Assembly (NCBI GenBank): GCA_012523015.1
Contig: JAAYJI010000317.1
Location: 1-49,003, forward strand
DNA: 49,003 nt
Source of the DNA: Candidatus Hydrogenedentota bacterium
GTDB taxonomy: Bacteria; Hydrogenedentota; Hydrogenedentia; Hydrogenedentales; CAITNO01
Direction of reading: 5' to 3'
Position 1 is the stretch's first letter. Each line of letters begins with the position of its first letter. The notes beneath the pieces were generated by a model that searched no databases, had not been told where the DNA came from, and worked only from the letters and a program-made list of their open reading frames with translations. This document shows, in pieces, positions 3,791 through 49,003 of this stretch. Made by a program: the position numbers and the translations under genes.

Positions 3791-4336
3791 ATGAAACTAC
3801 AATATCAAATTACAAAACATATACAACGTGTTTACCACCAAGTGCCGCGTGGACTGTTTTTGACCGCCCTCGTGCTGGCGGCAGTTGTCGGACCGCAATG
3901 CAGCGCCGTACCCAATCCCGTCGAAGGCAAAGAGGCGCCTAGTTTCTCCCTGAAATTGATGGATGGCGGTACGTTTGATCTGTCCGAGCATTTAGGGAAA
4001 CGGCCCGTGGTCTTGGATTTCTGGGCAGTATGGTGTCCCCCTTGCCGCGCTGCCATCCCGAAAGTGGCGTCGACCCGCAGCTCTTTCGCAGATCAAGACG
4101 TCATCATCTTGACCGTGAACTTGGGCGATTCCGTGGAAGGGATCGAAGCCTTTTTGAAAAGTGCATCGGTAGATGTGCCCGTTGCTTTGGATGATTCGGA
4201 AATTGCCAGCGAACTCTATCATATCACCAGCATCCCGACCATGGTTTTCATCGACAAAGAAGGCAAAGTGGCCCGTGTGAATGTGGGCGGCATGAGCGAG
4301 GCCTCGCTCCATTCAGTCATCACGGATCTGCTCTAA
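3791..4336 (+). CDS. Secreted thioredoxin-like protein (TlpA/ResA type)
   Basis: The 181-aa protein has a membrane-targeting segment at residues 21-35 (GLFLTALVLAAVVG) followed by a redoxin domain. The active site is WAVWCPPCR with Cys82 and Cys85, and the cis-proline motif is SIPTMVFID (Pro149). It belongs to the TlpA/ResA/AhpC-TSA superfamily, whose members act outside the inner membrane to reduce disulfides, for example in cytochrome c maturation. There is no classical lipobox: the sequence before Cys37 is VGPQ. The protein may therefore be cleaved by signal peptidase I or stay anchored. The 3' end overlaps the convergent symporter gene by 17 bp. A link to the haem proteins elsewhere in the window is possible but speculative. 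Confidence 0.92.
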   Translation: MKLQYQITKHIQRVYHQVPRGLFLTALVLAAVVGPQCSAVPNPVEGKEAPSFSLKLMDGGTFDLSEHLGKRPVVLDFWAVWCPPCRAAIPKVASTRSSFADQDVIILTVNLGDSVEGIEAFLKSASVDVPVALDDSEIASELYHITSIPTMVFIDKEGKVARVNVGGMSEASLHSVITDLL

Positions 4337-5804
4337 GAACGGCGGGCGCAGCGGGCGCAAAGATCTTGCCTTCGCCCCGTGACACCACCACGGCACCGAC
4401 ACAATCGCCGGTCACGTTCACGACAGTGCGGCTCATGTCGAGGAGTCTGTCCACGCCCAAGACGATGGCGATACCTTCCATCGGAATGCCGGCAGTGCTG
4501 AAAATAATGCCCATGAGCCCAATGCTCGCGCCCGGGATACCCGCTGTGCCGATAGACGCCAGTATAGCCGTCATAAAAATCATGAACTGCTGTTGAAAAC
4601 CAAGCTGCATGCCATAGACTTGCGCCACAAAAAGCGCTGCCACACTTAAATAAAGAGCGGTACCGTCCATATTAATGGTAGCGCCCAAAGGCAGCATAAA
4701 ATTTGTAATGCTGCGATCGGCACCCACCCCTTTTTCCACAGATTCTATGGAAACCGGCAGTGTAGCAAGGCTTGACGAGGTACTGAAGGCTACTTGAAAA
4801 ACGGGGATCATCTTCTTCAAAAAAAAGCGCGGCGAGACCCGCCCCAAAAGCGGGCAAATCACAAAACACAAGACACAAAAATGAAGGCTTAAGCCGAGCA
4901 TCACCGTGAAGAAGTATTTGGTCAAGGTGAGCATATAGCCTAGTCCCAAATCTGAGATGGCGCAGGTCATGAGTGCGAATACGCCCATAGGCGCCAAAAA
5001 CATGACCCAAATAATGATGCGGATCAGCGCCTTATCCAGGCTTTGAAAGACCTGCAGCGCCGGCTGTCCTGCTGTGCCCAAAGTCGCAAGGGCAGCGCCT
5101 AAAATCAACGCGAAAAAAATGACGACGAGAGGATTTTCGCCGACCATGACCGGGTTACGGATGAGGGATGGAAGGATCTCATCCTGAAGACGGCGCCCGA
5201 GTGAAGGAACCGTATCTTCAGTTTCAGCGGCACCATCCGCCGCCGGGGCCCCATCTGTTTCGGATAAGGCTGCAGCTGAGCTCTGTTCCGGTATTAGGGC
5301 GGTGCGGCCGACGCCCGGGCGAATTGTATTGACGAGGAAGAGCCCCAACAACACGGCGAGTCCCGTGGTCGTACAATAGTAGACGAGGCTTTTTGTGCCG
5401 ACAGAACCCAGTTTTGACGGATCGCCTATGCCTGCTGTTCCCGTTAATACGGACACAAAAATAAGGGGCAGGATCGTGAAGGTGAGCAGCAGAATAAAGA
5501 GACGCCCGAAAATCCCGATATAATCACGGACAAAATCTGCCTCGCCCAGAAGGGGGAGTAAAGCGCCGGCAACAATACCTGCCACCATGGCGGCGAGAAT
5601 TTGGCCCGGCAATGAAAAGCGGCGCGGCAGCCACCGACAAAAGCATAGCAGACTCAAGAATAGCAGGATGCTGCGCAGGAACCCCTGCAGGAGGGGGGCG
5701 GTGGTCGTGGGATCGCGCAGTGATGCGCCGCTCAGTATCAGGGCGATCAGCGCAACGGTGAATATCCCATAGGGCAGCCTTCTTTTTTTCGGATAATCTT
5801 TCAC
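4320..5804 (-). CDS. Dicarboxylate/amino acid:cation symporter (DAACS/SDF family)
   Basis: The 494-aa membrane protein matches the GltP/DctA fold. It has the serine-rich re-entrant loop AFSTSSSLATLP, the substrate/sodium site ATINMDGTALY, and the last-helix motif MSRTVVNVTGD, where Arg and Asp set substrate choice. It would import glutamate, aspartate or C4-dicarboxylates with sodium or protons. The sequence has an insertion of about 35 acidic and Ala-rich residues (around 170-205, rich in Glu, Ala, Asp) between transport-domain helices, a likely extracytoplasmic loop. The start is GTG (GTG AAA GAT). A purine-rich AAGAAAAAGGG sits very close to it, so initiation may be weak. The substrate choice is not resolvable from these motifs alone. 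Confidence 0.93.
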   Translation of the reverse strand: MKDYPKKRRLPYGIFTVALIALILSGASLRDPTTTAPLLQGFLRSILLFLSLLCFCRWLPRRFSLPGQILAAMVAGIVAGALLPLLGEADFVRDYIGIFGRLFILLLTFTILPLIFVSVLTGTAGIGDPSKLGSVGTKSLVYYCTTTGLAVLLGLFLVNTIRPGVGRTALIPEQSSAAALSETDGAPAADGAAETEDTVPSLGRRLQDEILPSLIRNPVMVGENPLVVIFFALILGAALATLGTAGQPALQVFQSLDKALIRIIIWVMFLAPMGVFALMTCAISDLGLGYMLTLTKYFFTVMLGLSLHFCVLCFVICPLLGRVSPRFFLKKMIPVFQVAFSTSSSLATLPVSIESVEKGVGADRSITNFMLPLGATINMDGTALYLSVAALFVAQVYGMQLGFQQQFMIFMTAILASIGTAGIPGASIGLMGIIFSTAGIPMEGIAIVLGVDRLLDMSRTVVNVTGDCVGAVVVSRGEGKIFAPAAPAVLRADP

Positions 5805-5850
5805 ACCCTTTTTCTTTGCTCCCTTGTTAAACTGTTAGTTGGTAAACAAT

Positions 5851-5880
5851 TTGTCGTTAACTTTATGAATGTGCCATAAT
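5851..5880 (+). promoter_or_regulatory. Candidate sigma-70-type promoter for acpP
   Basis: TTGTCG (5851-5856) and CATAAT (5875-5880) are separated by 18 bp, in a spacer and flank rich in A+T. Transcription would start near 5887, giving a leader of about 145 nt before acpP. The match was made by eye and is not tested. Confidence 0.4.
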
Positions 5881-5892
5881 ACCGACAGAAGC

Positions 5893-5918
5893 CGATGTAA
5901 GACAACTTCTTTACATCG
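5893..5918 (+). other. Stem-loop in the acpP leader
   Basis: CGATGTAA (5893-5900) and TTACATCG (5911-5918) form a perfect 8-bp stem around a 10-nt loop. It would lie at the very 5' end of the transcript from the candidate promoter and could protect the mRNA or regulate it. No run of T follows, so it is not a classical terminator. Confidence 0.4.
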
Positions 5919-6031
5919 CCCATGTATGGTTGGGAGATTTCCCGGCGCGGCGCACCGGATGCTGCGGCGAGCCGATCATGCAGCCACAGAAGCAGTTATC
6001 CATTTCAGAAAAAAAATAAGGACGATTTGTT

Positions 6032-6283
6032 ATGGACCAAGATCTTTCCCTCAAAATTAAACAATTAATTGCCGACCGCTTTGACCGAAACCTAAACGAA
6101 ATTACCGATGATGCGCGTTTTGTCGAAGACTTGGGCGCTGACTCCTTGGACCTTACCGAACTGATGATGGCTTTGGAAGAAGAATTTGATATCCTCGTTG
6201 ATGACCTTTCCGATTCCATTGATACGGTAGCCGATGCTATCAATTTTATTGAAAAACAGCTGAACGAATCGAAGAACGACTGA
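6032..6283 (+). CDS. acpP: Acyl carrier protein
   Basis: This 83-aa acidic protein has the phosphopantetheine attachment motif GADSLDLTE with Ser38. The helix pattern and length are typical of fatty-acid-synthesis ACP (usually 77-80 aa). The attached 4'-phosphopantetheine arm carries growing acyl chains between the FAS II enzymes in the cytoplasm. AAGGA lies nine bases before the ATG. fabF and rnc follow on the same strand, a gene order conserved in many bacteria. The 177-bp gap to fabF is larger than usual for this cluster and may hold a processing site or second promoter. The C-terminus is slightly longer than usual (KQLNESKND). Identity is secure. Confidence 0.97.
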   Translation: MDQDLSLKIKQLIADRFDRNLNEITDDARFVEDLGADSLDLTELMMALEEEFDILVDDLSDSIDTVADAINFIEKQLNESKND

Positions 6284-6466
6284 CCAAGGCGATACCGTCT
6301 GAGGGGGCGCAAACACCGACTTTGTCGTGGCATTGCTGTGTGTTGCTTTCAAGACGCTTTCTGCCGCCCATTGAGAGGCGGCTTCCCATCGCCGTCTGCC
6401 TATCAGCGCAGGTATAGCAGCATTGCCGTGAGGGGGGACATATGATGCAACTCTCTGGAAATGACT

Positions 6467-7696
6467 ATGGACAAAAATCGTGTTGTCGTGACGGGCTTAG
6501 GTGTAGTGTCGCCCGTAGGAAACAACTGCACAACATTTTGGGACAACCTTGTCGAAGGCCGTTCGGGCATTCGCGCCGCTGATTTTGTGGATGAACGAAC
6601 TGCTTCGCGAATTGCCGGCATGGCGGAAGATGTTGTCCCGGATACGATGTCCCCGAAAGAGCTGAAACGGCAAAGCCGATTTATTTTGTTTGCCCTGGAA
6701 GCGGCGAATCAGGCATGGGCGCAATCCGGGCTCGATATGAACCACGAAGATCCCTATCGCTGCGGCGTTTACCTTGGCACAGGTATCGGCGGTATCCAAG
6801 ATATCGAAGAGAACGCTCTTAAACTCCACGAATCGGGGCCTCGCCGCGTGTCGCCCTTGTTAATGATCAAAGGCTTATCCAATATGGCGGCAGGCACTGT
6901 TGCCATGCAATTTGGATTGCAAGGACCCAATGCCTGTGTGGTGACCGCCTGCGCCACCGGCGCGCAAAGCATTATCGCCGCTGCCAACGCAATCCGTTTG
7001 GGACAAGCCGATGTAATGCTCTGCGGCGGTACAGAAGCCACTGTGATACCCTATGGTCTCGCTGCTTTCAGTTCGTTGCGCGCCCTGTCTACGCGTAATG
7101 ATGCGCCGGAACAAGCGAGCCGACCTTTTGACCGCGACCGTGACGGTTTCGTCCTATCAGAAGGAGCCGGCGTGTTGGTCTTGGAATCAGAAGCCCATGC
7201 GCGCAGCCGCGGCGCGGAGATATTGGCGACTCTTGCCGGCACGGCAGAAACAAGTGATGCCTATCATCCTGTGGCGCCCCGTCCCGACGGATCAGGTGCC
7301 GCAGCCTCCATGCGCTTAGCATTACAGCAGGCCGGTATCGCGCCGGATCAGGTTGATTATTGCAACGCCCACGGCACAAGTACGCGCTTGAATGATGTAG
7401 CGGAATCTCTCGCTTTTTTGGATGTTTTCGGGACTGACACCCCCTTCGTGAGTTCGACAAAATCGATTATGGGTCATTTGCTTGGCGCGGCAGGTGTTGT
7501 CGAGTCCATTGCATGTATACTTACTATTCGGTATAATACCATTCATCCTAATATAAATTATGATTATCCGGATCCGGAATGTCCCATTAACGTGGTGGGT
7601 AACACGGCGCGGGAGGTCTTAGTTGACATTGCCCTATCAAACTCGTTAGGATTTGGCGGGCACAATGCAACGCTGGTCTTCCAAACTTATAAGTGA
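6467..7696 (+). CDS. fabF: Beta-ketoacyl-ACP synthase II
   Basis: The enzyme condenses malonyl-ACP with acyl-ACP to extend fatty acids. Counting from the ATG at 6461, the catalytic triad is Cys164 (VTACATGAQS), His304 (NAHGTSTRLND) and His339 (KSIMGHLLGAAG), as in KAS II. The length (409-411 aa) is normal. Two in-frame starts exist, ATG 6461 and ATG 6467. I prefer 6467, because GGAA (6457-6460) is then six bases upstream and the N-terminus MDKNRVVVTGLG matches the family. A stronger purine run GAGGGGGGA (6430-6438) precedes an out-of-frame ATGATG at 6442, which is odd. The gene sits between acpP and rnc. Confidence 0.96.
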   Translation: MDKNRVVVTGLGVVSPVGNNCTTFWDNLVEGRSGIRAADFVDERTASRIAGMAEDVVPDTMSPKELKRQSRFILFALEAANQAWAQSGLDMNHEDPYRCGVYLGTGIGGIQDIEENALKLHESGPRRVSPLLMIKGLSNMAAGTVAMQFGLQGPNACVVTACATGAQSIIAAANAIRLGQADVMLCGGTEATVIPYGLAAFSSLRALSTRNDAPEQASRPFDRDRDGFVLSEGAGVLVLESEAHARSRGAEILATLAGTAETSDAYHPVAPRPDGSGAAASMRLALQQAGIAPDQVDYCNAHGTSTRLNDVAESLAFLDVFGTDTPFVSSTKSIMGHLLGAAGVVESIACILTIRYNTIHPNINYDYPDPECPINVVGNTAREVLVDIALSNSLGFGGHNATLVFQTYK

Positions 7697-35119: not shown

Positions 35120-35345
35120 ATCACTGTGCGTTGCCGGTCTCCGGGATCAAGGGTCAATAGTTAAAATGAAGATAAAAAGACCCCTCAACCAAGGATGGTA
35201 TCTACACCTGTACTTTATAAGAACAAATCGGAACGTCTTTTTGTTCGCCGCCGAAAGAAATAAGTTATGCTCTCTATGAGCGGCTCCGAAGAATGGCCGG
35301 TCTATCCGTCATTTACGGTCGTTAAATTTTTGTATTCGATTTGGG

Positions 35346-35351
35346 TATAAT
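35346..35351 (+). promoter_or_regulatory. Candidate -10 box for a leaderless GT39 transcript
   Basis: A perfect TATAAT ends seven bases before the ATG at 35359. Transcription from it would begin at or next to the start codon, and no Shine-Dalgarno sequence is present. The -35 region (TAAATT with a 17-bp spacer) is weak. Confidence 0.35.
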
Positions 35352-35358
35352 CAAGATC

Positions 35359-36954
35359 ATGTGCCCCTTATCAAACACGCAACACGAGACAAAAGAATCT
35401 AAAATCGCTCAATGCTTCGGCTCAAAGGCGCTGCCGTATTGGGCGCTGTTTTTCTTTGCGTTGACGGTTCGTATACTGCACCAGACGCTGATCAGCCAAT
35501 CAGATCCCATGTACGGATTCTTATTACAAGGCGGCGATAACTACACTTACGACCGATGGGCAAATGAAATCGCTCAGCAATTTTGGCTGGGATGGGATCG
35601 CATCCCTTTTTTTCACGGCCCCTTATATCCCTACTTTCTCAGCCTCATCTATTTGCGCTTCGGCCATAAACATGACCCCGCCGCATGGGCACAACGCCTT
35701 GTCGGCTCCATAACGGTCGTACTAATCTTTTATCTTGCACGCCGCATTTTTGGTAAAAAAGCAGGCTGGTTTGCAGGTAGTGCCGCAGCCCTGTCTCCCT
35801 TGTCCCTCTTTTACGAAGGGGAGTTGCTCGTGGAAACGCTTATGCTTTTCGTACACCTATCCACCTTGTGTATTTTAGTGGAGGCAGCGAAGCAAAAGCG
35901 ATTCAAGTGGTGGCTCTTCGCGGGCCTTATCCTCGGCATCAGCTGTGTGGGTCGGCCCAACACGCTGCTCCTAGTCCCTTTTATCTTCCTTTGGATTATC
36001 GCCTTGGATCAAGGCAATTGGAAACGACGCATCTTCTCCGCCTTGCTTTTCCTGATCATGACCGCGGCAGTTATCGCTCCCGTTACGCTAACAACAGCCC
36101 TCGTGGGCAAACGTTTTTTCCTGGTCACCTACAGCGGAGCTTACAACCTCTATATAGGCAATGCACCCGATGCCATCGGCGTATTTTTTACGCCGCCGTC
36201 GATGAAAGAGATTCGTGAGGCAGAGGAAAAGGAAGACATTGATATTAACTGGCGCGGCTATCTCCTCGACGCGTGGAAGAAAGATCCCTTGCTGCTGCCG
36301 CGAAAGCTGGCGTTGAAAACGCTTCTATTTTTCCAAAGCGGTGAACTGCCCTGCGACGTGAACTTTTATTTACGACGTCCCTTTTCCATCTTTTATCATT
36401 CCCCCTTCCGCTGGGCCTTTATTGCGCCTCTCGGCATAATCGGATTGATCCTGGCTTTTTTCAAAAAAGCCTATGCGCGAATAGAGGATGGAAGATTCAT
36501 CCTTGCCGCCTATTTACTTCTTTATGCCGCCAGCGTGATTCTTGTGTTTGTGCCGGGACGTTTACGCATGCCCGCATTCGCCATCCTACTCATCTTTGCA
36601 GGATACGCTTTCGCCCTGAGCCTCGAAGGGCTTTGGAAGGGCATACGCACCAAGTCGGCGCGCTCCTTTATCGCGCCCGGTTTGGCTGTTCCCCTTCTGT
36701 GGGTCTTGTTGGCTTTCGCGTTGCGCAGTCCCACAGATACCATGCTCATCCGATGGAATGATTATTTTAATATGGGCAGCGCCTGCGAAATGAATTATAA
36801 CTATCCCCTAGCCTTGGATTATTATGAACAAGCCCATGAACGGGCGCAAGGCTTGGTATCTTTAGAAGAGATTTGTAATAATTTGCGTGAACGTATTGAA
36901 CAACAAACTCGTAAGGAGGAGGAGCCTAACGAGACGCAATGTTTCAACAATTAA
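35359..36954 (+). CDS. GT39-type (PMT/ArnT-like) membrane glycosyltransferase
   Basis: This 531-537-aa integral membrane protein has about 10-12 helices. The N-terminal block DRWANEIAQQFWLG with FHGPLYPYFLSLIYLRFG is the typical periplasmic loop and early helix of PMT_2/GT39 enzymes, which use polyprenyl-phosphate sugars as donors. AAALSPLSLFYEGELLVET is another conserved stretch. The C-terminal 60 residues are a soluble tail with one TPR-like helix pair (NYNYPLALDYYEQAHERA). It probably glycosylates envelope lipids or proteins on the outer face of the membrane. The longest frame uses TTG 35341. ATG 35359 is preferred because of the TATAAT immediately before it. The 3' end overlaps the next gene by 16 bp, so the two are likely co-translated. 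Confidence 0.88.
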   Translation: MCPLSNTQHETKESKIAQCFGSKALPYWALFFFALTVRILHQTLISQSDPMYGFLLQGGDNYTYDRWANEIAQQFWLGWDRIPFFHGPLYPYFLSLIYLRFGHKHDPAAWAQRLVGSITVVLIFYLARRIFGKKAGWFAGSAAALSPLSLFYEGELLVETLMLFVHLSTLCILVEAAKQKRFKWWLFAGLILGISCVGRPNTLLLVPFIFLWIIALDQGNWKRRIFSALLFLIMTAAVIAPVTLTTALVGKRFFLVTYSGAYNLYIGNAPDAIGVFFTPPSMKEIREAEEKEDIDINWRGYLLDAWKKDPLLLPRKLALKTLLFFQSGELPCDVNFYLRRPFSIFYHSPFRWAFIAPLGIIGLILAFFKKAYARIEDGRFILAAYLLLYAASVILVFVPGRLRMPAFAILLIFAGYAFALSLEGLWKGIRTKSARSFIAPGLAVPLLWVLLAFALRSPTDTMLIRWNDYFNMGSACEMNYNYPLALDYYEQAHERAQGLVSLEEICNNLRERIEQQTRKEEEPNETQCFNN

Positions 36955-39900
36955 CGACGGAAAGACACCCTAAAAGAAGCAGTCCAATTGCCGTGACCGC
37001 CTTTATCGCGGCGGCTTTGTTCTTTATCTGTTACAGCGGCGCAGTAGTTTCACATTGGATGGTAGACGATGCCTTTATCTCTTTTCGCTATGCGGCGAAT
37101 TGGGCCGCCGGATTTGGCCCCGTCTATAATCCCGGCGCCGCCCCGGTGGAAGGATACACCAATTTCATGTGGTTGGCATTGCTCGCATTGGGAGCCCGCC
37201 TGTGCGGCGATCCTGTGTCACTGGCTCGGCTGCTGGGAGGCGCTGCCGGGCTATTAACCTTGTTACTGCTCTATTATTCGCATCGTCTCATCCGCGGATT
37301 GGATCGCAGCGTGTCTGTTATAGCGGCGCTCTTACTCGCCACCTGCTGCCTATTTCTGCCTTGGCCTTTAAGCGGTATGGAAACGACGCTCTTCGGGCTC
37401 TTGCTGAGCTTGTCTTTGTTGCTTCACTTTTCCACCCTCGGAGAGCGGCCTTCTCGAAAACGATTATTGCTTTTGGGCATGATCCTTGCCCTTACGGCAA
37501 TGACGCGGCCCGAAGGTTTCTTGGTAGCCGCCTTAGTGCTCGCTGATCAGACTTTAGAGAGTCTCTTAAAAAAACGCTGGCAGGTCTTTTTTGTGTGCCT
37601 CGCCTTCTTGCTGTTCTTTCTGCCTTGGTTCTTTTGGCGCTGGTCTTACTATGGCGCCCTTCTTCCCAATACTTTTTACGCGAAGGTAGGCGTGTCTGAA
37701 GCGCAGACTCGCCGGGGCTGGCAATATTTTTGGCGCATGTACAAGCCGGCACGGTTTTTGATCATGGCCGCTATGGCCGCTGTCTTAGTGCCGTGGGTAT
37801 GGCTGCGCCGGCTGGCGCGCTATTATCTGCTCCCGCTGCTGCTGCTTTTATATACGGTCTATATCATCCGTGTAGGCGGTGACGGTCTTCCCGCTTTCCG
37901 TTTTTTTGCGCCCCTCGCCGCGCCCTTGTGTCTGCTTGCCGCCCTTGGCATTCGAAGAATCATTCCTTATCGTCCCGTTACGGTATGCCTCCTTGCCTTT
38001 CTTTTAATGACCAATCTCTATCAAGCCTTTAGTCATCCTGAATGCTATAACCATGTTAAGCAGGGCGATTATGTGCATACCAAGGGGACGCTTGTGGGGC
38101 AATGGCTGCGCGACCACGCGCCCGAAGGCATCACCCTCGCCACGAATACTGCAGGAACCATTCCCTATTATTCGCGATTAAAGACCGTGGACATGCTGGG
38201 CTTAAACGATGCTCATATTGCGCGTAAAACCATCGGAACCATGGGTCAGGGCTATGCCGGACATGAAAAAGGAGATGGCGCATACGTATTAAGCCTCAAG
38301 CCAGATCTCATTCAATTTTCGTCTTCCAGCGGCAGTGAACGCCCCTCTATTGAATTTATCGGCGATCAAGAAATTTTCAGAGATCCCGCCTTCAAAAAAG
38401 ACTATCGTTTAAAAGAATTTGAAATGAGCGATGGCAGTCCGCTCTTCCTCTATGTACGCGAAGACTCCCCCTTTCTCAGAGAGGAGGAAGATCTCCTCTT
38501 TGATGATTTTGAATCGGGCAGCTACGAGAACTGGAAGATTGAAGGCGACTGTTTCGGCAACAGCCCCGTTATCGGCACGCTCCCCGGACAGCGGCCTCTG
38601 CAAGGCTACACAGGGGAACGACTGATCAATACGCTGGATGGCAACGTGCAATCAACGGGCATCGCCCTGTCCAACAGCTTTGTGATCAGCCACAATTATA
38701 TTCAGTTTCTTCTGGGCGGCGGATTTCATCCTCATGAAACCGTCATAAGCCTGCTCGTCGACGGCGAGGCAGTTCTGAGCAAGACGCCGAAGAGCAGCAA
38801 TATTTTGTTGCCTGAATCGTGGCAAGTATCGCAATGGCTGGGTCGGGAAGCACAAATCGAAATCAAAGATCTCGCCACGGGCAAACGGGGATTCATTCTT
38901 GTTGATCAGATTGTCTTCAGCAATACGAATCGGTCGGCAGCACACTACGCACGACGTTATACCCATGCGCGCTTCGGTTTCTTGCCCTGGCTCCTTTTGG
39001 GCGCAGGCATTTGGATAAGCTACGCATTAAGACGCCGTACGCCATTGCACGTATCAGAAAAACTTCTGCCTTGGGTCGTGCTCCTATTCTTTGTCGTCCT
39101 CTACCGAACGGCTTGGGTCTGTGATGACGCGTGCATCTCCATGCGTACTGTCCACAACTTCACCAATGGTCTTGGTCTCACATGGAATATTGGCGAACGG
39201 GTCCAAGCATACACCCACCCGTTGTGGATGTTTCTTGTTTCCGCTGTCTATTATTTCTCTCAAGATCTCTATCTCACCTTGATCGTGCTCAGCATGGTTA
39301 CTTCCCTCATTGCTCTTTGTATGGCAGCGTGGTGGGTAGCACCGCGCTCAGGCATTGCCATCGCCGGCTTATTGATACTGATGTTTTCCCGAGCCTTCAC
39401 CGATTTTTCTTCCTCAGGTCTTGAAAATCCGCTTGCCCATTTACTTCTTGCAGTCTTTATGATTCTCTATTTGCGTATACAATGGACACCGGCACTATTG
39501 TTCTTTTCGACGCTCGTCGCCTCGCTCATTGTACTGACGCGCATGGATCTTTCCCTATTAGCAGCGCCTGCTGTGTTGTGGATGTGGCTGAGTTTGCGCG
39601 ATAAAAAATCAACGGCACTCCTCATCCTCGCCGGTATGCCCGTCGTGTTATGGATCCTTTTCTCCCTCATTTATTATGGATTTCCATTCCCGAATACGGC
39701 CTATGCCAAACTTGGCTCCGGCGTCGACCACAAATTATTGATGCAGCAATCAATTCGCTATTACATGCATTGCTGGAGCAAAGACCCGGGCACTTTGATC
39801 GTGATTGTTTTAGGCGCTGTCACTCCTTTCATCCTACGAAAAGAAAAATACGCCATCCTTTCCATCGGAATTATTTTGTATTTGATCTATATTGTGCGCA

Positions 39901-40610
39901 TCGGCGGCGACTTCATGGGAAATCGTTTTTTTGCGGCTCCCTGTTTTTTGGCTGTGTTAATTCTTATGCGGATGGCGAAACGCTTTCGCAGCTACACATG
40001 GGTTCCTGTTGTATGCGGCATTATATTGATTAGTTCTTATATGCCCCACGTCCCCCTCTTCTCCGACGCTGCCTTTGGCAGTAAATGGGAAAGTCCGATC
40101 AGCCGCTATGGCATCTGTAATGAACGCCAATATTATTATAATTGCACGGGACTTCTCCATTGGCGTCCGGAAAAAATCATGCCGCGCGAGAATTGGGGTA
40201 TGAGCATTATCCAATACGCCATGCTGGATGTCCCCCTAATTCGAATGTATCCCATGATCGGTTTTCAGGGGTACTTTAGCGGGCCCAAAACCATTCTTAT
40301 TGATCCCCTCGCACTGAGCGATCCGCTGTTATCGCGATTGCCCGCCATAAAGACGCAAGAACTGCGTATCGGCCACATGGAACGTCATATTCCTGACGGC
40401 TATTTGGAGACGCGCTTCACCGGCAAAAATCTTTTGAAAGATCCGCAGTTAGCGGCGTTTTACGACAAACTGTACCTGTTAACCCAAGCGCCCCTCTTTA
40501 CCAAAGAAAGATGGAAAACCATTGTCAACATGCAGCTTAAGCGTTACGACCATTTGATCGACTGGGAATTCTATAAAGATCAAATGCCTGATATGACTTT
40601 GCTCGAATAA
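36939..40610 (+). CDS. Double GT-C glycosyltransferase-like membrane protein with central lectin-like domain
   Basis: The 1223-aa polypeptide holds two GT-C-like membrane units. Unit 1 starts VVSHWMVDDAFISFRYAANW (Asp43-Asp44), with GPVYNPGAAPVEGYTNFMW and PNTFYAKVG. Unit 2 starts around residue 727 with VCDDACISMRTVHNFTNGLG, QAYTHPLWMF and PNTAYAKLG. The paired DD, the Y/THPLW-type loop and the PNTxYAK loop repeat, so the gene looks like an internal duplication. Between them (about 519-665) is a beta-sandwich starting DDFESGSYENWKI and ending VDQIVFSN. It resembles the non-catalytic C-terminal beta module found with GH32-type enzymes. The C-terminal tail IGHMERHIPDGYLETRF recalls AftB-like arabinosyltransferases. 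Activity and sugar are unknown. The ATG overlaps the upstream stop region, and a long AAGGAGGAGGAG lies ~14 bases upstream. Confidence 0.85.
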   Translation: MFQQLTTERHPKRSSPIAVTAFIAAALFFICYSGAVVSHWMVDDAFISFRYAANWAAGFGPVYNPGAAPVEGYTNFMWLALLALGARLCGDPVSLARLLGGAAGLLTLLLLYYSHRLIRGLDRSVSVIAALLLATCCLFLPWPLSGMETTLFGLLLSLSLLLHFSTLGERPSRKRLLLLGMILALTAMTRPEGFLVAALVLADQTLESLLKKRWQVFFVCLAFLLFFLPWFFWRWSYYGALLPNTFYAKVGVSEAQTRRGWQYFWRMYKPARFLIMAAMAAVLVPWVWLRRLARYYLLPLLLLLYTVYIIRVGGDGLPAFRFFAPLAAPLCLLAALGIRRIIPYRPVTVCLLAFLLMTNLYQAFSHPECYNHVKQGDYVHTKGTLVGQWLRDHAPEGITLATNTAGTIPYYSRLKTVDMLGLNDAHIARKTIGTMGQGYAGHEKGDGAYVLSLKPDLIQFSSSSGSERPSIEFIGDQEIFRDPAFKKDYRLKEFEMSDGSPLFLYVREDSPFLREEEDLLFDDFESGSYENWKIEGDCFGNSPVIGTLPGQRPLQGYTGERLINTLDGNVQSTGIALSNSFVISHNYIQFLLGGGFHPHETVISLLVDGEAVLSKTPKSSNILLPESWQVSQWLGREAQIEIKDLATGKRGFILVDQIVFSNTNRSAAHYARRYTHARFGFLPWLLLGAGIWISYALRRRTPLHVSEKLLPWVVLLFFVVLYRTAWVCDDACISMRTVHNFTNGLGLTWNIGERVQAYTHPLWMFLVSAVYYFSQDLYLTLIVLSMVTSLIALCMAAWWVAPRSGIAIAGLLILMFSRAFTDFSSSGLENPLAHLLLAVFMILYLRIQWTPALLFFSTLVASLIVLTRMDLSLLAAPAVLWMWLSLRDKKSTALLILAGMPVVLWILFSLIYYGFPFPNTAYAKLGSGVDHKLLMQQSIRYYMHCWSKDPGTLIVIVLGAVTPFILRKEKYAILSIGIILYLIYIVRIGGDFMGNRFFAAPCFLAVLILMRMAKRFRSYTWVPVVCGIILISSYMPHVPLFSDAAFGSKWESPISRYGICNERQYYYNCTGLLHWRPEKIMPRENWGMSIIQYAMLDVPLIRMYPMIGFQGYFSGPKTILIDPLALSDPLLSRLPAIKTQELRIGHMERHIPDGYLETRFTGKNLLKDPQLAAFYDKLYLLTQAPLFTKERWKTIVNMQLKRYDHLIDWEFYKDQMPDMTLLE

Positions 40611-40648: not shown

Positions 40649-41551
40649 ATGCAAATCTGCCCAAAAAAACAGTCTATTGCCTTCCTTTTACACGCCGCAT
40701 GGAGAGCGGTCTTGTCTGCCGCCGCTCTTACAATGATCTTTTCTTGTTTCGCTTGTCATTTAGAAAAAGCTCCGAAAACGATTGACCCGGAAACAGAGCC
40801 GGGGTGGAGCCTTTGGATGGATGAATCTTTTGACGGACAGCAGGTGGATGAAACACGGTGGGACACAGGATTTCCGTGGGGGCGCTGCTGGCCGCCCCTC
40901 TACTATACGAAGACCGGAAATATTGAAATTAACGAAGGCATCTTGCAGTTAATCGCCCGCTCTGAAGTGGTCACCGGCTTTTGTTTTGACTGGGACGAGG
41001 CAGGTAATTTTACGCCCTATTACGCCGATTTCCCATACACATCCGGAATGTTTTACAGCCGTCAGGCTTTCCGCTATGGCTATTTCGAATGTCGCTTTAA
41101 GGTGCCGCGGGGCAAATCTTTTAACGCGGCATTTTGGCTCTATGGCGAAGAGGACTCTGAAATCGATGTCTTCGAAATTCTCGGAAGTAATCCCGCTGAC
41201 GCACAGATGACGCTCCATTGGAAAAACAGAGATCCTCTCGTGGGAACACGGCAATGGCCCAAACATATCGTGTGTAACACCCCTTCTTTTGCAGAGGGAT
41301 GGCATACCTTCGGGCTGCTCTGGGAACCCAATCGTTTGGAATGGTATTTAGACGGAAAGCGGGTGGAACAATCCCTATGGACGAGATTCATCCGAGGGCG
41401 TCATATTCCAACAGTGGATATGCATCTCATTCTCACCTTGGCCATAGGCGTCATGGATGGATACCCCGATGAAACAACCCCCTTCCCTTCCGCCTTTGAG
41501 GTGGATCGAGTACGGGTATTTCACACACCGGAAAGCATCTTACCTTCGTAA
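40649..41551 (+). CDS. Secreted GH16-family glycoside hydrolase, probable lipoprotein
   Basis: The 300-aa protein is a GH16 beta-jelly-roll enzyme that cleaves beta-1,3/1,4-glucans or related galactans. The catalytic motif SEIDVFEILG gives Glu171 as nucleophile, Asp173 as helper and Glu176 as acid/base, in the beta-bulge ExDxxE form. Upstream blocks YTSGMFYSRQAFRYGYFECR and GKSFNAAFWLYG are typical. The N-terminus is hydrophobic up to a Cys pair (IFSCFAC, Cys33 and Cys36). The first could be a lipobox Cys, giving a lipoprotein. The gene lies 38 nt after the double GT-C gene on the same strand, which suggests glycan production and trimming in one unit. The exact substrate is not predictable. 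Confidence 0.92.
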   Translation: MQICPKKQSIAFLLHAAWRAVLSAAALTMIFSCFACHLEKAPKTIDPETEPGWSLWMDESFDGQQVDETRWDTGFPWGRCWPPLYYTKTGNIEINEGILQLIARSEVVTGFCFDWDEAGNFTPYYADFPYTSGMFYSRQAFRYGYFECRFKVPRGKSFNAAFWLYGEEDSEIDVFEILGSNPADAQMTLHWKNRDPLVGTRQWPKHIVCNTPSFAEGWHTFGLLWEPNRLEWYLDGKRVEQSLWTRFIRGRHIPTVDMHLILTLAIGVMDGYPDETTPFPSAFEVDRVRVFHTPESILPS

Positions 41552-42961: not shown

Positions 42962-45900
42962 TTACTCTAATCCGGGGGCGCTGATGCGTTCCCCGCGCTG
43001 TTGCCGCTCCTGATCGTCGAATTCGAAGGAACCATAGAACAGTGCGTTGGCGTCCATCCACGTGACCAACCGTTCCCAATCGTCATCGTCCAATTCTACG
43101 TTGTGATGCCCTTTTTCAAGAAGTTTGGTCAGGGCACTTCCCTTGGCACCGAAGAAACCCGGCTCCGCGAGGGGCTCGCAATTGCCGTCGGGAAAAGGAC
43201 CGCCGTGCCCCCATGCGGCATAAGAGACGCGCGAGATGAGAGCATTGTAGGATTGGGTATAGCGCCCCTCGGGCCGGCCCGTGAGATGGATAGCTTTTCC
43301 ATCGGGTCCTTGTGCGTCTTTTTCACCATGACAGTGGACGCAATGCTTATCCAAAACAGGCTGCACCAATATGGGATAACTCAGCGGCAGGGCTCCATCG
43401 GGAGCCTCACTGATACGGGAAGGCGCACGACGCTGAGCAAGCGTTCTGATTTCCGACTTTGACGGCGCGTCCATTCGGTTTTCGTGGCATCCCACACAAG
43501 ACAATCTTTCGCCGGGCTGCAAATACGAAACACTGCGCATGACCTGCACCGCCTGACCGGATGCATCCAAAGCTTGGAAGGAAAGCGCCTTGCCGGAAGG
43601 CGCGATGAAGTAGGCAGAGCCATCTTCTTCCACAGGAACGGTGCCGAGCACCTGTTTCCCCGGCGAGGCGTTGGCGGCACCAACGGTTGGATTGTTCGCG
43701 CCGGAGGTGGATTTGGGCAAGACCTGCACAATGCGCAAGTGGGTTACGGGCGTATCCTCGGGCAGCGCAGGATCACTTTCATAGACATTCTGCACATAAT
43801 AGCTGCCTTCTTGAGGAGCGTCGTCTTCAAGCAAAGAGGGCAGCACAGGCGCTTTTTCCCGTGCCTTGAGCGGCATGGGCCATAGGCTTGCAATATTCAA
43901 ATCGCGATACAACAACTCTTGATTTCCATAGGCATCAACGAGGTAAAGACCAAAAATATTGGCGTCATTATGCTTGGGTTCGCCAATGAGCGGATCAAAG
44001 CTATAAGCGGCTAAAAACAGATCTTCGGCAAGAGGCCAAGGGCTGCGGAAGCATTGACCCGGCCAGCGTTCGGTCTCCGGGAATACTGCAGGAGGATCCG
44101 GGGCAAGGGCAGAGCGCCAGTGGGGCAGCAACAGTGACTCACTCTCCGGAAAGGGGACATGGGGCGTAAGCCGTTCCAGCGCATCAAGACCGTCAATGGC
44201 AACCGTGGGATCTACAAGCACAATGGACCCTGCCGTCATGCCATGATGGGGCGCAGCAGTTGCCATAACGCGGTGCGACCCGGGAACAGACCGAGCCTCC
44301 CACAAGCCGACGGGATTAAAGGTGTTGTTGCCGTAAAAAGCAGCGGGCGCGGTGCCGTCCGGCCGTGTGATCCATAAATGTTGGTAATGAACGGCGTCTC
44401 GATCCACATAATCCCAACGGGTATAGATGACCCTGCCGTCATTGAGCACAGCGGGATCCCACTCTTGCGTTTCATGAAAAGATAAGACCCGCACATCACC
44501 GCCATCGGCATTCATCAGGGTCAGCGTATAGACTTCACAGCCCGGTGTCCCGCAGCGATGCCATCCTCCCCTGCGCGTGGATATAAAAATAATTTGCCCA
44601 TTCGGCAATTCCTTAGGCGAAAAGTCATCGTACGCTCCTTCGGTCAAGGGCCGCCACGACCCATCCCCATTAGAAATTTCATAGAGATGGTAAAACTGCC
44701 CTGCTGTACCGTTGAAACTATCTTGCGGCACGCCTTCTGTCCGACAAAAAGCAACGATAATCCTTTCGCCGGCATGGTCCACTTCAGGCTGCATAAAACT
44801 GCCTGTGGGCATGTCTTCCGCTAACCGGCGCACGCCCATATCATGGAGAGGATCATCCAAGACATAGAGCCCGCCGCCGGGGCGGGCATAACGGCCATAT
44901 ACTTGGGTCAGCTGGTGGCTGAACATACCGGGCGCCTGTTTCACAAAGAGCAACGCCCCCGTGTCCGCCAACGGATGCGCGAAAAGCAGCGCACGCCGCC
45001 GCTGATGCACTTCCCGCCACAGTTCTTGCCAGGGAGCACTGTCGCCTTCCCATTCCTCTAGGCGCAGGGCTTCAAAATCAGCCTTCAATTGAAACCAAGA
45101 ACGAAGCACATCATCCGATACGGGCAGCTGCTGCGCCTCTAATTGAGCGGCGAGCCGATTCCCCTTTTCCAAACAGCTCTCCGCCCCTTCCCGATAGCTG
45201 CAGCGGACCGCGCCGGCACCGATACCATCTTGCATGCGCCAATCCCACTCGAGCATTTCCTGAAGGATCAGAGGATGGGCAAGTATATCCGTCGGTGTGG
45301 TGAGTTCGGACACCGCCGCTTTCTCGGGAAAAAAATCTATGTCTATTTTGCGGTCGCCGCTGACGAGATAGAGTTGGGTCAGGCGAACTGCAGCATCTGC
45401 ACCCCCTCCGTCCACCACAAAAGACAGCAGACGATCGCTATCCCAACTTTCCGAGGAAACACACAGGACACTTTCGCCTCCTTTTAAAGCGATCTCTTCG
45501 CTGAGCCCGCCGGCAAAGCTTAAGGAAAGGGAAGCGGGTGCACCGCCCGCATGGGACACGACGGCAACGGCAGTCATAGGCTCTTCGCTTTTACCTAAGG
45601 GCACATCAATGCGTGCCTCTTCATGAGCAGCGGCCATAAGTGTGCAGCAATGAAGGGGTCTTGAAAAGGCAAGTTGCGCGCCCTCGCTCTTCCCCAAAAG
45701 GGCATAACTCCCTTCCATCCGTTGTTGGGATGTTGCTGGAGAAAAACGCGCTGCGCCAATTTCAACAAAAAACCTATCCTCCATCAACAGCGCATGCGCC
45801 CAGTTCGCCATATCATTGGCAATACCATCCCCACAGTCTGAAGCAACGAGCCGCAAGATCTTCGCATCGACGAGATCCACTTCAACGGGCTTTGCCGCGT

Positions 45901-46300
45901 CACTGTCGCTCATGCATCCCGATTCAAAACATTTTTTGTCATCGACCCACACCTCAAAAGAAACACTTCCTTTACCTCCGCCCTGCCATTGAACGCCCAC
46001 TTCCGCTGTGAAAGAAAGAAAGCGTCCGTCTATAGGCAGCACGATTTCTCCGGGCGCGTGGTGACCGAGTCCGTGGCCGTATTCTTTTTCACCAATACAT
46101 AACGTCATGCCTTGTCCATCGGTCGGATAGGCTGCTCTGTCCTTACCTAAGTTTCCCCAGCCCTGCTGAACCGTCAATTCCGATTCAAGGTCTGCAAGAT
46201 GGATTCCCTTTTCAGCGGCGTCAACGCTCATGCAAAGAAAAGCAAAAAGAAAGAGGGAAAGAAAAATAAAGGTCCCATACCGATGATGCCATATACTCAT
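42962..46300 (-). CDS. Hydrazine-synthase-alpha-like secreted diheme protein with NPCBM domain
   Basis: About 1112 aa with a signal peptide (TFIFLSLFLFAFLC). Residues ~37-170 are an NPCBM-like carbohydrate-binding domain (GWGNLGKDRAAY, YGHGLGHHAPGEI). The middle is a beta-propeller-like region as in hydrazine synthase alpha, with DGRVIYTRWDYVDRDAVHYQ and GNNTFNPVG. The C-terminus has two c-type haem sites, CVGCH (940-944 counted from 46315) and CVHCH (992-996). HzsA of anammox bacteria is the named relative, but such proteins are widespread in non-anammox Planctomycetota with unknown function. The longest frame begins with TTG 46315; ATG 46300 is preferred. It is paralogous to the next upstream gene on the minus strand. 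No anammox genes are visible, so hydrazine synthesis is not implied. Confidence 0.87.
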   Translation of the reverse strand: MSIWHHRYGTFIFLSLFLFAFLCMSVDAAEKGIHLADLESELTVQQGWGNLGKDRAAYPTDGQGMTLCIGEKEYGHGLGHHAPGEIVLPIDGRFLSFTAEVGVQWQGGGKGSVSFEVWVDDKKCFESGCMSDSDAAKPVEVDLVDAKILRLVASDCGDGIANDMANWAHALLMEDRFFVEIGAARFSPATSQQRMEGSYALLGKSEGAQLAFSRPLHCCTLMAAAHEEARIDVPLGKSEEPMTAVAVVSHAGGAPASLSLSFAGGLSEEIALKGGESVLCVSSESWDSDRLLSFVVDGGGADAAVRLTQLYLVSGDRKIDIDFFPEKAAVSELTTPTDILAHPLILQEMLEWDWRMQDGIGAGAVRCSYREGAESCLEKGNRLAAQLEAQQLPVSDDVLRSWFQLKADFEALRLEEWEGDSAPWQELWREVHQRRRALLFAHPLADTGALLFVKQAPGMFSHQLTQVYGRYARPGGGLYVLDDPLHDMGVRRLAEDMPTGSFMQPEVDHAGERIIVAFCRTEGVPQDSFNGTAGQFYHLYEISNGDGSWRPLTEGAYDDFSPKELPNGQIIFISTRRGGWHRCGTPGCEVYTLTLMNADGGDVRVLSFHETQEWDPAVLNDGRVIYTRWDYVDRDAVHYQHLWITRPDGTAPAAFYGNNTFNPVGLWEARSVPGSHRVMATAAPHHGMTAGSIVLVDPTVAIDGLDALERLTPHVPFPESESLLLPHWRSALAPDPPAVFPETERWPGQCFRSPWPLAEDLFLAAYSFDPLIGEPKHNDANIFGLYLVDAYGNQELLYRDLNIASLWPMPLKAREKAPVLPSLLEDDAPQEGSYYVQNVYESDPALPEDTPVTHLRIVQVLPKSTSGANNPTVGAANASPGKQVLGTVPVEEDGSAYFIAPSGKALSFQALDASGQAVQVMRSVSYLQPGERLSCVGCHENRMDAPSKSEIRTLAQRRAPSRISEAPDGALPLSYPILVQPVLDKHCVHCHGEKDAQGPDGKAIHLTGRPEGRYTQSYNALISRVSYAAWGHGGPFPDGNCEPLAEPGFFGAKGSALTKLLEKGHHNVELDDDDWERLVTWMDANALFYGSFEFDDQERQQRGERISAPGLE

Positions 46301-46370
46301 GTCTGCGATTCCCAAAGTAAAAATATTTCAATACGAATAATCTTGTTGCGATATGCCCTATTTTAGCACT

Positions 46371-46535: not shown

Positions 46536-49003
46536 TCATGGCGCACACACAACGCGGAACCCTACATCATGGACGCATTGGCTAGCGTCGAAGTGATTGC
46601 GGAAAGCTGAACGGCCCCGCTTCGGACAGTCCCGCCAAGAACCGCCGCGCACCACCTTAGCCTGATCTGATCCGTACGAAGAAGCGGTCCATTCCGCTAC
46701 GTTACCATGCATGTCATGGAAGCCCCAGGGGTTGGGCCGGAAACTTCCGACTGCAGCGGAAACACGCCACGTATCATCAAAGCGCGTGTCTGCGGGGCGC
46801 CAAGGCGGTATGGCGGTGGGTACATGGGGATAATAGACGGTGTGGTGGGTGGCGTCGGAGAAGTTCGCTGACGTCGAAAATTCGGAGTCCAAGGTTCCGT
46901 ACCAGAGGGGCGTTGTCGTGCCGGCACGACAGGTATATTCCCATTCTTCTTCAGTGGGTAGACGGAACGATCTGCCCGTATGTGCCGTGAGCCATTCGCA
47001 AAAGCGCATAGCCTGTTCCCAAGATACACGGACCACCGGCTGTTCCGGACGGTTGAGTGTGTGCCCTCTTTCGTCGTCGCCGAACTGATAAGCCTCCCCT
47101 GTCTCCAAGCCGCTGTCGTGCCCCGGGTCAAAGCAACGGTATTGTTCATTGGTAATCTCGAATTTTCCCATCAGGAAAGGTTCTTCGATAGACACGCTTA
47201 GCGCGGGACCTTCATTGGTATAGCCGCGATCAGCGCCCATTTGAAATTCACCGGCGTCTACAAAGACCAGTTCCAAATCGACCCCTTCCGCCAGATTCAC
47301 CCGTTCTATCAGTGTTTCTTTTGCCGTGTCTTTTAGCGCACGCTCCGTATCTTCCGCGAAATCACGGGGCACACAGTGCAGCCGATCGGCGAGATCTTCG
47401 GGAGCCGCTATCTCGGCCGTGGGCGGGATCTCCTCTTCATCCACATCCATGCCCGCATAACGGTGATGGAGTTCACGACGCCGCTGTGCGCCGTGTTTTG
47501 CAGCTGCTATTTTCGTTGCATTTTGACCGGCTTCCGCAACTTCCTGCCATGTGCCGTGGAAGGGCGCGTTCAGGTCTATCCACGTAATAATCCGATCCCA
47601 CGCCTCATCACTCAATTGAACACCATAATGATCATCTCGGAGCAGCTGCACCAGCGTGCTCGTATCGGCATGAAAATCACGAGGGGTCAACATGTGTGCG
47701 TCACTTTCGAGGGTGGGCGCATTTACCCAAGGGCGCAGCGCCATATAAGAAGGCGAAAAATACATTTGAAAGGCGGAAGGAATCTTTTTAGTAGACCGTG
47801 CCGTGAGATCAAAGTTCACTGTGCCATCCTCAAAATCCTTGCCGTCGTGACAACGAATGCAATAGGCATCCAGCACGGGCTGTACCTCCCGGTCAAAAGA
47901 AAAGCCCCGCGCCGCGCCGTACCAAGGCCGTATGGTGGAGGGTTCTCGTTGAAAAGCCTGACGGATCCCGTCGTAATCGCCCAGTGTATTTTGGGCTTCA
48001 TGGCATCCTGTGCAGGAAAGCGTTTCGCCGGGCATGGCAGTAAGCCAACTGCGCATCAACGCCACAGCCTTGCCGTCTTCATCCAGCGGCTGCAGGGCGA
48101 TAGGCGTGTGGGCGGGCACCGTGAAATGGGCAGAGCCGTCTTCATCGACCGGAACGGTTCCGATGATTCGTTTCACATCCCAAGGTCCGTCCAATCCCAC
48201 CCGATCCGGTTCACAGCCCAATTCATGGAAGGTATAGGTATAGCCTATGAGCCGCAAGGCTTTGACCGTTCCTCGGGGAACTCCTGCAAGTCCCGGCCCC
48301 TGATAAACGTCGGTGAGCATGACCCTTGCTTCTGTCCCGTTGAAATCCACTTTGTCGGGAACCACCGGTTGTCGCGGTATTTCCCGCCACGGCACAGGTT
48401 CTAAAAACGCCCAATCCGCTTCTTCATGAATCAGAACAAAATTATTGAAAACATCTACCAAATAAATCCCCCAAAGAGCGTCTATGCTTGGCTTACAAGA
48501 GACAAGAAAATAGTGTTCATTCAGGGGCCATGGGTGGAGAAAGCGCGGCCAAATCGCTGAAACCAGCCCGTCCAAAATAACGGGTTTCACTTCTTTACCA
48601 TCATCAGGAATACGTCGGACGACACCTTCCGCTTCATGGCGGCCCAAGGCAGGATCCAATATAAGCAATTCCCCTTGGCGCGGCGCGTCATGATGTCCGC
48701 CGGCGACGGCAACAACTTTGGTCGGATGATTGGGGATGGGCCGCGCATAAAATAAGGAGGCAGGCCAAAAGGAGTTGCTCCCATAATATTCCATTTGTGC
48801 GCTGCCATCGGGGCCGCAATGAAACAAGAGCCGATAGAAGGCATGGGCGATATCGGCGTATTCCCAACGCAAATAGAGGATACGCCCATTATTGAGCACC
48901 GTGGGGCACCAGTTATGATCTTGATCATTCGTGAGTCTGCGCACTTGCCCGTCCACTTCGCGCAGATACAAATTAGCGACCTTGGAACGCCCCCCTACAC
49001 AGG
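46536..49003 (-). CDS. Hydrazine-synthase-alpha-like diheme protein with C-terminal SUMF1-like domain (5' end outside window)
   Basis: The frame is open to the window edge; the visible part is ~820 aa, and the protein starts outside. The N-terminal visible part is propeller-like, paralogous to the neighbour: NGRILYLRWEYADIAHAFYR and GSNSFWPAS. Two haem sites follow, CTGCH (48014-48000) and CIRCH (47861-47847). A final domain of ~250 residues is formylglycine-generating-enzyme-like: DAGEFQMGAD, NEQYRCF, SWEQAMRFCEWL, RLPTEEEWEYTCRAG, GNVAEW, VRGGSWRD, and a last GFRVV. The position of the paired catalytic cysteines in FGE is changed: RGGSWRDCPKRGRSAFR has only one Cys. It is thus probably not an active FGE but a binding or structural domain. 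It lies upstream of the other HzsA-like gene. Confidence 0.9.
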   Translation of the reverse strand, partial: CVGGRSKVANLYLREVDGQVRRLTNDQDHNWCPTVLNNGRILYLRWEYADIAHAFYRLLFHCGPDGSAQMEYYGSNSFWPASLFYARPIPNHPTKVVAVAGGHHDAPRQGELLILDPALGRHEAEGVVRRIPDDGKEVKPVILDGLVSAIWPRFLHPWPLNEHYFLVSCKPSIDALWGIYLVDVFNNFVLIHEEADWAFLEPVPWREIPRQPVVPDKVDFNGTEARVMLTDVYQGPGLAGVPRGTVKALRLIGYTYTFHELGCEPDRVGLDGPWDVKRIIGTVPVDEDGSAHFTVPAHTPIALQPLDEDGKAVALMRSWLTAMPGETLSCTGCHEAQNTLGDYDGIRQAFQREPSTIRPWYGAARGFSFDREVQPVLDAYCIRCHDGKDFEDGTVNFDLTARSTKKIPSAFQMYFSPSYMALRPWVNAPTLESDAHMLTPRDFHADTSTLVQLLRDDHYGVQLSDEAWDRIITWIDLNAPFHGTWQEVAEAGQNATKIAAAKHGAQRRRELHHRYAGMDVDEEEIPPTAEIAAPEDLADRLHCVPRDFAEDTERALKDTAKETLIERVNLAEGVDLELVFVDAGEFQMGADRGYTNEGPALSVSIEEPFLMGKFEITNEQYRCFDPGHDSGLETGEAYQFGDDERGHTLNRPEQPVVRVSWEQAMRFCEWLTAHTGRSFRLPTEEEWEYTCRAGTTTPLWYGTLDSEFSTSANFSDATHHTVYYPHVPTAIPPWRPADTRFDDTWRVSAAVGSFRPNPWGFHDMHGNVAEWTASSYGSDQAKVVRGGSWRDCPKRGRSAFRNHFDASQCVHDVGFRVVCAP

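Follow-up and report, generated by a model that had tools for sequence, protein, structure and literature searches.

The closest described relative of the protein considered here is mycobacterial AftB, a terminal β-(1→2)-arabinofuranosyltransferase of family GT89. AftB spans the membrane with eleven transmembrane (TM) helices, and its C-terminal part is a periplasmic cap (PMC12041299). D62 is its proposed nucleophile, R221 and R372 bind the phosphate of the donor, and T91, E172 and T274 make further donor contacts; the D62A mutant is inactive, as are mutants of both arginines (PMC12041299). The pairing of a GT-C transferase with a CBM is an established one. It is found in the mycobacterial EmbA/B/C and AftD proteins and in the GT136 enzyme ORF12 of Citrobacter youngae, a periplasmic GT-C enzyme that uses a lipid-phosphate pentofuranose donor and carries a β-rich C-terminal CBM. 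This CBM was shown to bind the acceptor polysaccharide, although transfer did not depend on it under the assay conditions used (PMC11127046).

The window, a 49,003-nucleotide stretch of DNA from a Candidatus Hydrogenedentota MAG (3.7 Mb in 357 contigs), encodes a protein in which two AftB-like units are joined in one chain. Its layout is as follows:

36939..40610, + strand: whole fusion gene of the Candidatus Hydrogenedentota MAG, a single uninterrupted frame of 1223 aa
36939..38468, + strand: N unit, residues 1-510, an AftB-like GT-C transferase with a periplasmic cap (NF041481 and NF047440 matches; profile match to AftB 9dlf)
38484..38933, + strand: β-sandwich module, residues 516-665, CBM35/CBM6-like (homologues in GH116 and GH32 proteins of the phylum)
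38973..39029, + strand: linker TM helix, residues 679-697 (hydropathy, alignment and the start points of stand-alone C genes)
39063..40607, + strand: C unit, residues 709-1223, an AftB-like GT-C transferase with a periplasmic cap (NF041481; single-sequence and profile matches to 9dlf)

Judged by homology and by its recurrence in related genomes, this is a real, genus-conserved and unusual domain fusion of known enzyme kinds. It differs from AftB in having two units per chain, an added sandwich and a linker TM helix, in belonging to a different phylum, and in scoring far under the AftB equivalog cut-off. EmbA-EmbB also pairs two GT-C units, but non-covalently rather than in one chain. ORF12 is similar by description, the donor of the fusion being a proposed one, but it has a single catalytic unit and its three-component genes are clustered, whereas the donor genes of the fusion lie elsewhere in the genome; no NCBIfam match named GT136 was obtained for the fusion. 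In a full-text literature search of open papers with a few terms, no chain with two complete GT-C transferases was found to have been described.

The homology of the two membrane halves was confirmed to be far above chance. Residues 12-341 align locally with residues 698-1012 at 27% identity (BLASTP E 1e-22). The local alignment score of the halves is 229, compared to a mean of 64 (SD 16, maximum 116) for 300 shuffles made within 10-residue windows, so that the hydrophobic pattern was preserved. A profile of the N family matched that of the C family with a probability of 99.9 and E 3.5e-36 over 391 columns, in an alignment that begins in the first periplasmic loop and extends as far as the cap motif, which reads GLND...GHE in N and ALSD...GHM in C. 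The first-pass annotation had described two GT-C-type units in one polypeptide and called for a self-alignment of the halves; the alignment is significant, and both units turn out to be AftB-like.

AftB (PDB 9dlf) was the only significant PDB sequence match for either half, with E 1.9e-16 for the C unit as a single sequence and 2.5e-21 and 3.9e-37 for the N and C profiles, respectively. Emb and AftD gave no significant match to either unit in the PDB sequence and profile searches. Foldseek with the N model, the comparison that bears on the GT-CA fold (TM1-7 plus two juxtamembrane helices), returned AftB as its best match (E 2.4e-4), with EmbA, EmbB and AftD among the top matches, although this model is of low confidence (mean pLDDT for the AlphaFold models, made with four alignment rows, was 38.9 and 43.6). 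The fusion scores 36.3 bits against the 26.1 cut-off of Pfam PMT_2 (PF13231) at residues 77-233 when the whole protein is scanned, and the N unit scanned by itself gives no match; the PF13231 hit is a generic GT-C match, and AftB is the closer relative. Against NF041481, the AftB equivalog, the fusion reaches 81.5 bits compared to a cut-off of 1050, which is passed by no genome of the phylum. Since neither half reaches this cut-off, donor and linkage are not transferable by homology alone. The N unit also matches NF047440, an uncharacterised Leptospira glycosyltransferase family.

The positions that bind the donor in AftB can be followed into both halves, as placed by alignment:

37065..37070, + strand: N unit DD motif, D43-D44 (D44 = AftB D62)
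37380..37382, + strand: N unit E148 (= AftB E172)
37506..37508, + strand: N unit R190 (= AftB R221)
37665..37685, + strand: N unit PNTFYAK, residues 243-249 (T245 = AftB T274)
37899..37901, + strand: N unit R321 (probable equivalent of AftB R372, one residue off)
39123..39128, + strand: C unit DD motif, D729-D730 (D730 = AftB D62)
39423..39425, + strand: C unit E829 (= AftB E172)
39540..39542, + strand: C unit R868 (= AftB R221)
39690..39710, + strand: C unit PNTAYAK, residues 918-924 (T920 = AftB T274)
39924..39926, + strand: C unit R996 (= AftB R372)

The DD motif and the PNTxYAK loop thus do occur twice in the 1223-aa chain, as had been noticed from the sequence at the outset. AftB T91 corresponds to T74 in the N unit and T759 in the C unit, and D62, T91, E172, R221 and T274 are represented by identical residues in both halves. 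Both halves place the predicted catalytic aspartate (D44 and D730) in the first periplasmic loop after TM1, as in the GT-CA superfamily. Each half resembles AftB in its predicted GT-CA-type layout, the DD after TM1, the equivalents of T91, E172, R221, T274 and R372, and the cap motif, and both qualify as AftB-like homologues in the wider sense, combining a significant AftB match with the donor-site residues, the R372 equivalent of the N unit being shifted by one.

This shift counts in favor of a different view, in which one half is a dead scaffold or a substrate-binding partner, a pseudo-heterodimer fused in one chain. GT-C dimers of unlike subunits exist, as in EmbA-EmbB and Pmt1-Pmt2. However, R372 is matched exactly in the C unit, and the displaced R321 is invariant across the N family. 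Both halves retain the DD, T, E, R and T residues, which vary little or not at all in the corresponding stand-alone families, and the two halves are about equally conserved among the fusion orthologues. A dead partner is accordingly judged quite improbable. The early suspicion that one unit may be inactive finds little to rest on: with the AftB nucleophile and donor-binding residues conserved in both, neither half looks inactivated.

Because AftB ends in a periplasmic cap after its eleven TM helices, a fusion of two such units needs an extra helix to put both active sites on the same side of the membrane. The linker helix (residues 679-697), which is directly followed by RRR, would serve this purpose. 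By alignment and hydropathy it is kept in the fusions and missing from the stand-alone C genes. From the hydropathy, it is predicted to bring the chain back to the cytoplasm, so that the C unit then starts with a free AftB-like topology and the active sites of both units would face the periplasm. For this reason, two steps at growing non-reducing ends appear likelier than action on both ends of a glycan, as had also been suggested.

An internal duplication was the original explanation for the doubled layout, and the fact that the halves can be aligned over most of their length is what a recent tandem duplication of one gene in this lineage would produce. The stand-alone genes of the phylum speak against it. 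Identity between the halves is 27%, whereas each reaches 36-47% with its own, different set of stand-alone genes, its direct relatives. The N-type genes encode proteins of 505-551 aa that end 0-29 residues from the position matching residue 509, while the C-type genes (526-780 aa) start at the helix that begins near residue 709; neither has the sandwich. In a maximum-likelihood tree, the N units group with the stand-alone N genes (support 100/99), and the whole C group, including the C units, forms a second clade (96/97). AftB branches on the C side, although the deep order is unsure and the branches are long. Separate clades and closer identity to different stand-alone genes indicate that the fusion joined two old paralogues rather than arising from one duplicated gene, and a recent duplication is hardly credible. 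On this evidence the gene is a union of two old paralogous families whose members are encoded separately elsewhere in the phylum, in families other than that of the window.

The fusion is present in all four genomes of the genus examined, at full length in three (G000, G001 and G003) and in G002 as a copy cut by the end of its contig. The orthologues are 62-65% identical and have the same module and linker. It is absent from the other 64 genomes of the phylum, 16 of which have one or both halves as separate genes (E 1e-40 or better). Two fusion-specific peptide patterns, which reach close relatives only, matched only the three congeners among 84,980 species, and the fusion was not found in viral contigs. 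An assembly misjoin or a lost stop codon was a natural concern with a window drawn from a MAG of 357 contigs. However, orthologous fusions read through in two other congeneric MAGs at full length and in a third to the contig end, so that the fusion is not an assembly artefact; that explanation can practically be dismissed. The search for the same fusion in related genomes, proposed with the first-pass annotation, thereby settled the question of an assembly join.

G001, G002 and G003 also carry a separate C-type gene (G001:C535, G002:C223 and G003:C342; L054, L053 and L055), while the genome of the window has none at E 0.001. In three other families, C-type AftB-like genes, separate but often in tandem, come in pairs that sometimes overlap, which amounts to a two-unit arrangement in unfused form:

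Tandem C-type pairs: L042 11062-14999; L043 10837-14782; L044 9739-13636; L045 9533-13487; L046 7882-11725; L117 737-3650

Several other long AftB-like frames were considered and set aside. A 3118-aa C-type frame in G029:C45 (L041 1946-11299) owes its length to a run of N in the scaffold and is an artefact, those in G009:C114 and G025:C38 are, by eye, single-unit proteins with TPR-like repeats, and the 715-aa frame in G018:C77 has one unit only. The motif filter assigned no unit count to the one in G012:C488.

The β-rich module between the units had been called sugar-binding-like from the start. It was placed at about residues 516-665 and is 39-50% identical to modules inside GH116 proteins (L028, L029, L031 and L038) and to an N-terminal module of a GH32 protein (L036); such modules are widespread in Hydrogenedentota glycosidases. 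No Pfam family matches the copy in the window, and the gathering score of CBM35 (PF16990) is not reached; four of ten homologues have weak CBM_35 matches (best E 0.0046). The sandwich profile had no significant match in the PDB, and Foldseek of the low-confidence model matched it to CBM35/CBM6 structures, which was used as a hint only. A sugar-binding role would suit the recurrence of the module in both glycosidases and a transferase.

The genome of the window also has putative genes for the kind of donor that AftB uses:

Contig C354 of the window's genome (L069, G000:C354), 4301-7321: dprE1-dprE2-DPPR-synthase cassette (profile matches)

The DprE1 homologue (E 2.7e-143) scores 478.4 bits, just below the 500-bit equivalog cut-off. 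The DprE2-like SDR reaches 172.8 against a cut-off of 250 and passes a different SDR model, while the DPPR synthase (decaprenyl-phosphate phosphoribosyltransferase) is above its cut-off (284 vs 234 bits). The predicted product of the cassette is polyprenyl-phosphate arabinofuranose, which is the donor of AftB, and these three donor-pathway genes are shared with the AftB system. It lies on a different contig from the fusion, not beside it. The same gene order is found in G001, G003 and genomes of two other families.

The current reading, to which we would assign a probability of roughly 0.55, is that the fusion tethers two transferases that work in series, each dependent on a lipid-phosphate pentofuranose. 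Both halves would be embedded in the inner membrane, with their active sites toward the periplasm, the N unit being followed by the periplasmic CBM35/CBM6-type sandwich, the extra TM helix and then the C unit. A pentofuranose carried on polyprenyl phosphate, probably the polyprenyl-phosphoryl-β-D-arabinofuranose supplied by the cassette, would serve each half as donor, and each would pass the sugar to a surface glycan that the sandwich would keep near. The catalytic aspartate would be D44 in the N unit and D730 in the C unit. The halves would carry out two different transfers, probably one after the other, such as an extension or branch and then a cap. Support from the sequence comes from homology and layout, the catalytic residues that are conserved, the retention of the fusion throughout the genus and the donor-pathway genes; from these we infer that both halves are catalytic and that the sandwich binds sugar, as well as the identity of sugar and acceptor and the order in which the steps occur.

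The most serious competitor is that both halves are active but use polyprenyl-phosphate hexoses of the kind made by DPM/GtrB-type synthases, and that the cassette serves other enzymes. GT-C families often switch donor, both halves are distant from AftB, and the N unit matches the Leptospira family mentioned above. The cassette also occurs in many genomes that lack N-type and C-type genes. DPPR synthase is found in 50 of the 68 phylum genomes and DprE1 in 43. Among these genomes, C-type genes are linked to DPPR synthase weakly at best (p 0.05-0.07) and are not associated with DprE1 (p 0.58). Against hexoses stand the AftB arabinofuranose and phosphate contact residues, which are conserved in both halves, and the presence of DprE1 in every N-type genome (11/11 vs 32/57 of the others, p 0.005). 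N-type genes outside the genus always occur with C-type genes (7/7 vs 9/57, Fisher p 1.8e-5; by genus 3/3 vs 8/40, p 0.013), although all of these co-occurrence tests except the genus-level count ignore shared ancestry and are weakened accordingly. On balance a hexose donor is considered unlikely, and the pentofuranose pair remains the preferred reading.

To our knowledge, the surface polysaccharides of Hydrogenedentota are undescribed, and the fusion and the cassette together point to DprE1/DprE2-dependent pentofuranose glycans in this phylum. In mycobacterial arabinan synthesis, successive transfers are made by separate proteins. If both halves work, the fusion would instead provide a natural pair of fixed stoichiometry in which the coordination of successive pentofuranose transfers could be studied. 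In its most specific form, which is tentative and has the odds somewhat against it, the protein would be a single-chain, two-active-site periplasmic pentofuranosyltransferase made from two different AftB-like enzymes, a sugar-binding module and a topology-correcting helix, making two consecutive lipid-phosphate-arabinofuranose transfers on one glycan: mycobacterial-style arabinan chemistry outside Actinobacteria, in assembly-line form and in an uncultured phylum.

The genes on either side of the fusion are:

35341..36954, + strand: GT-C gene of the PMT_2 family, upstream, overlapping the start of the fusion by 16 nt; weak TPR match at its C-terminus
40649..41551, + strand: GH16 gene, directly downstream of the fusion in the window

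The overlap with an adjoining GT39/PMT_2-type gene was thus read correctly at first sight. The same upstream neighbor is kept in G001 and in G003, which has two copies; these are the congeners whose sequence covers the upstream side. In contrast, GH16 does not adjoin the fusion in the congeners checked downstream, where other genes follow. Because the upstream PMT_2 gene is retained and GH16 is not, the conserved unit is PMT_2 plus the fusion, and the small unit with GH16 that had been proposed does not hold.

Elsewhere in the genome of the window, two proteins of 1432 and 1401 aa (L070 2571-6869 and L072 929-5134) combine a PMT_2 GT-C domain with what is, by eye, a very long run of TPR-like repeats. 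Further along the window itself, on the minus strand, 42962-46315 encodes a large protein with NPCBM, a hydrazine-synthase-alpha middle domain (PF18582) and c-type haem motifs, and 46536-48971 encodes another large protein that looks related to it and has, by eye, a sulfatase-modifying-factor-like C-terminal domain.
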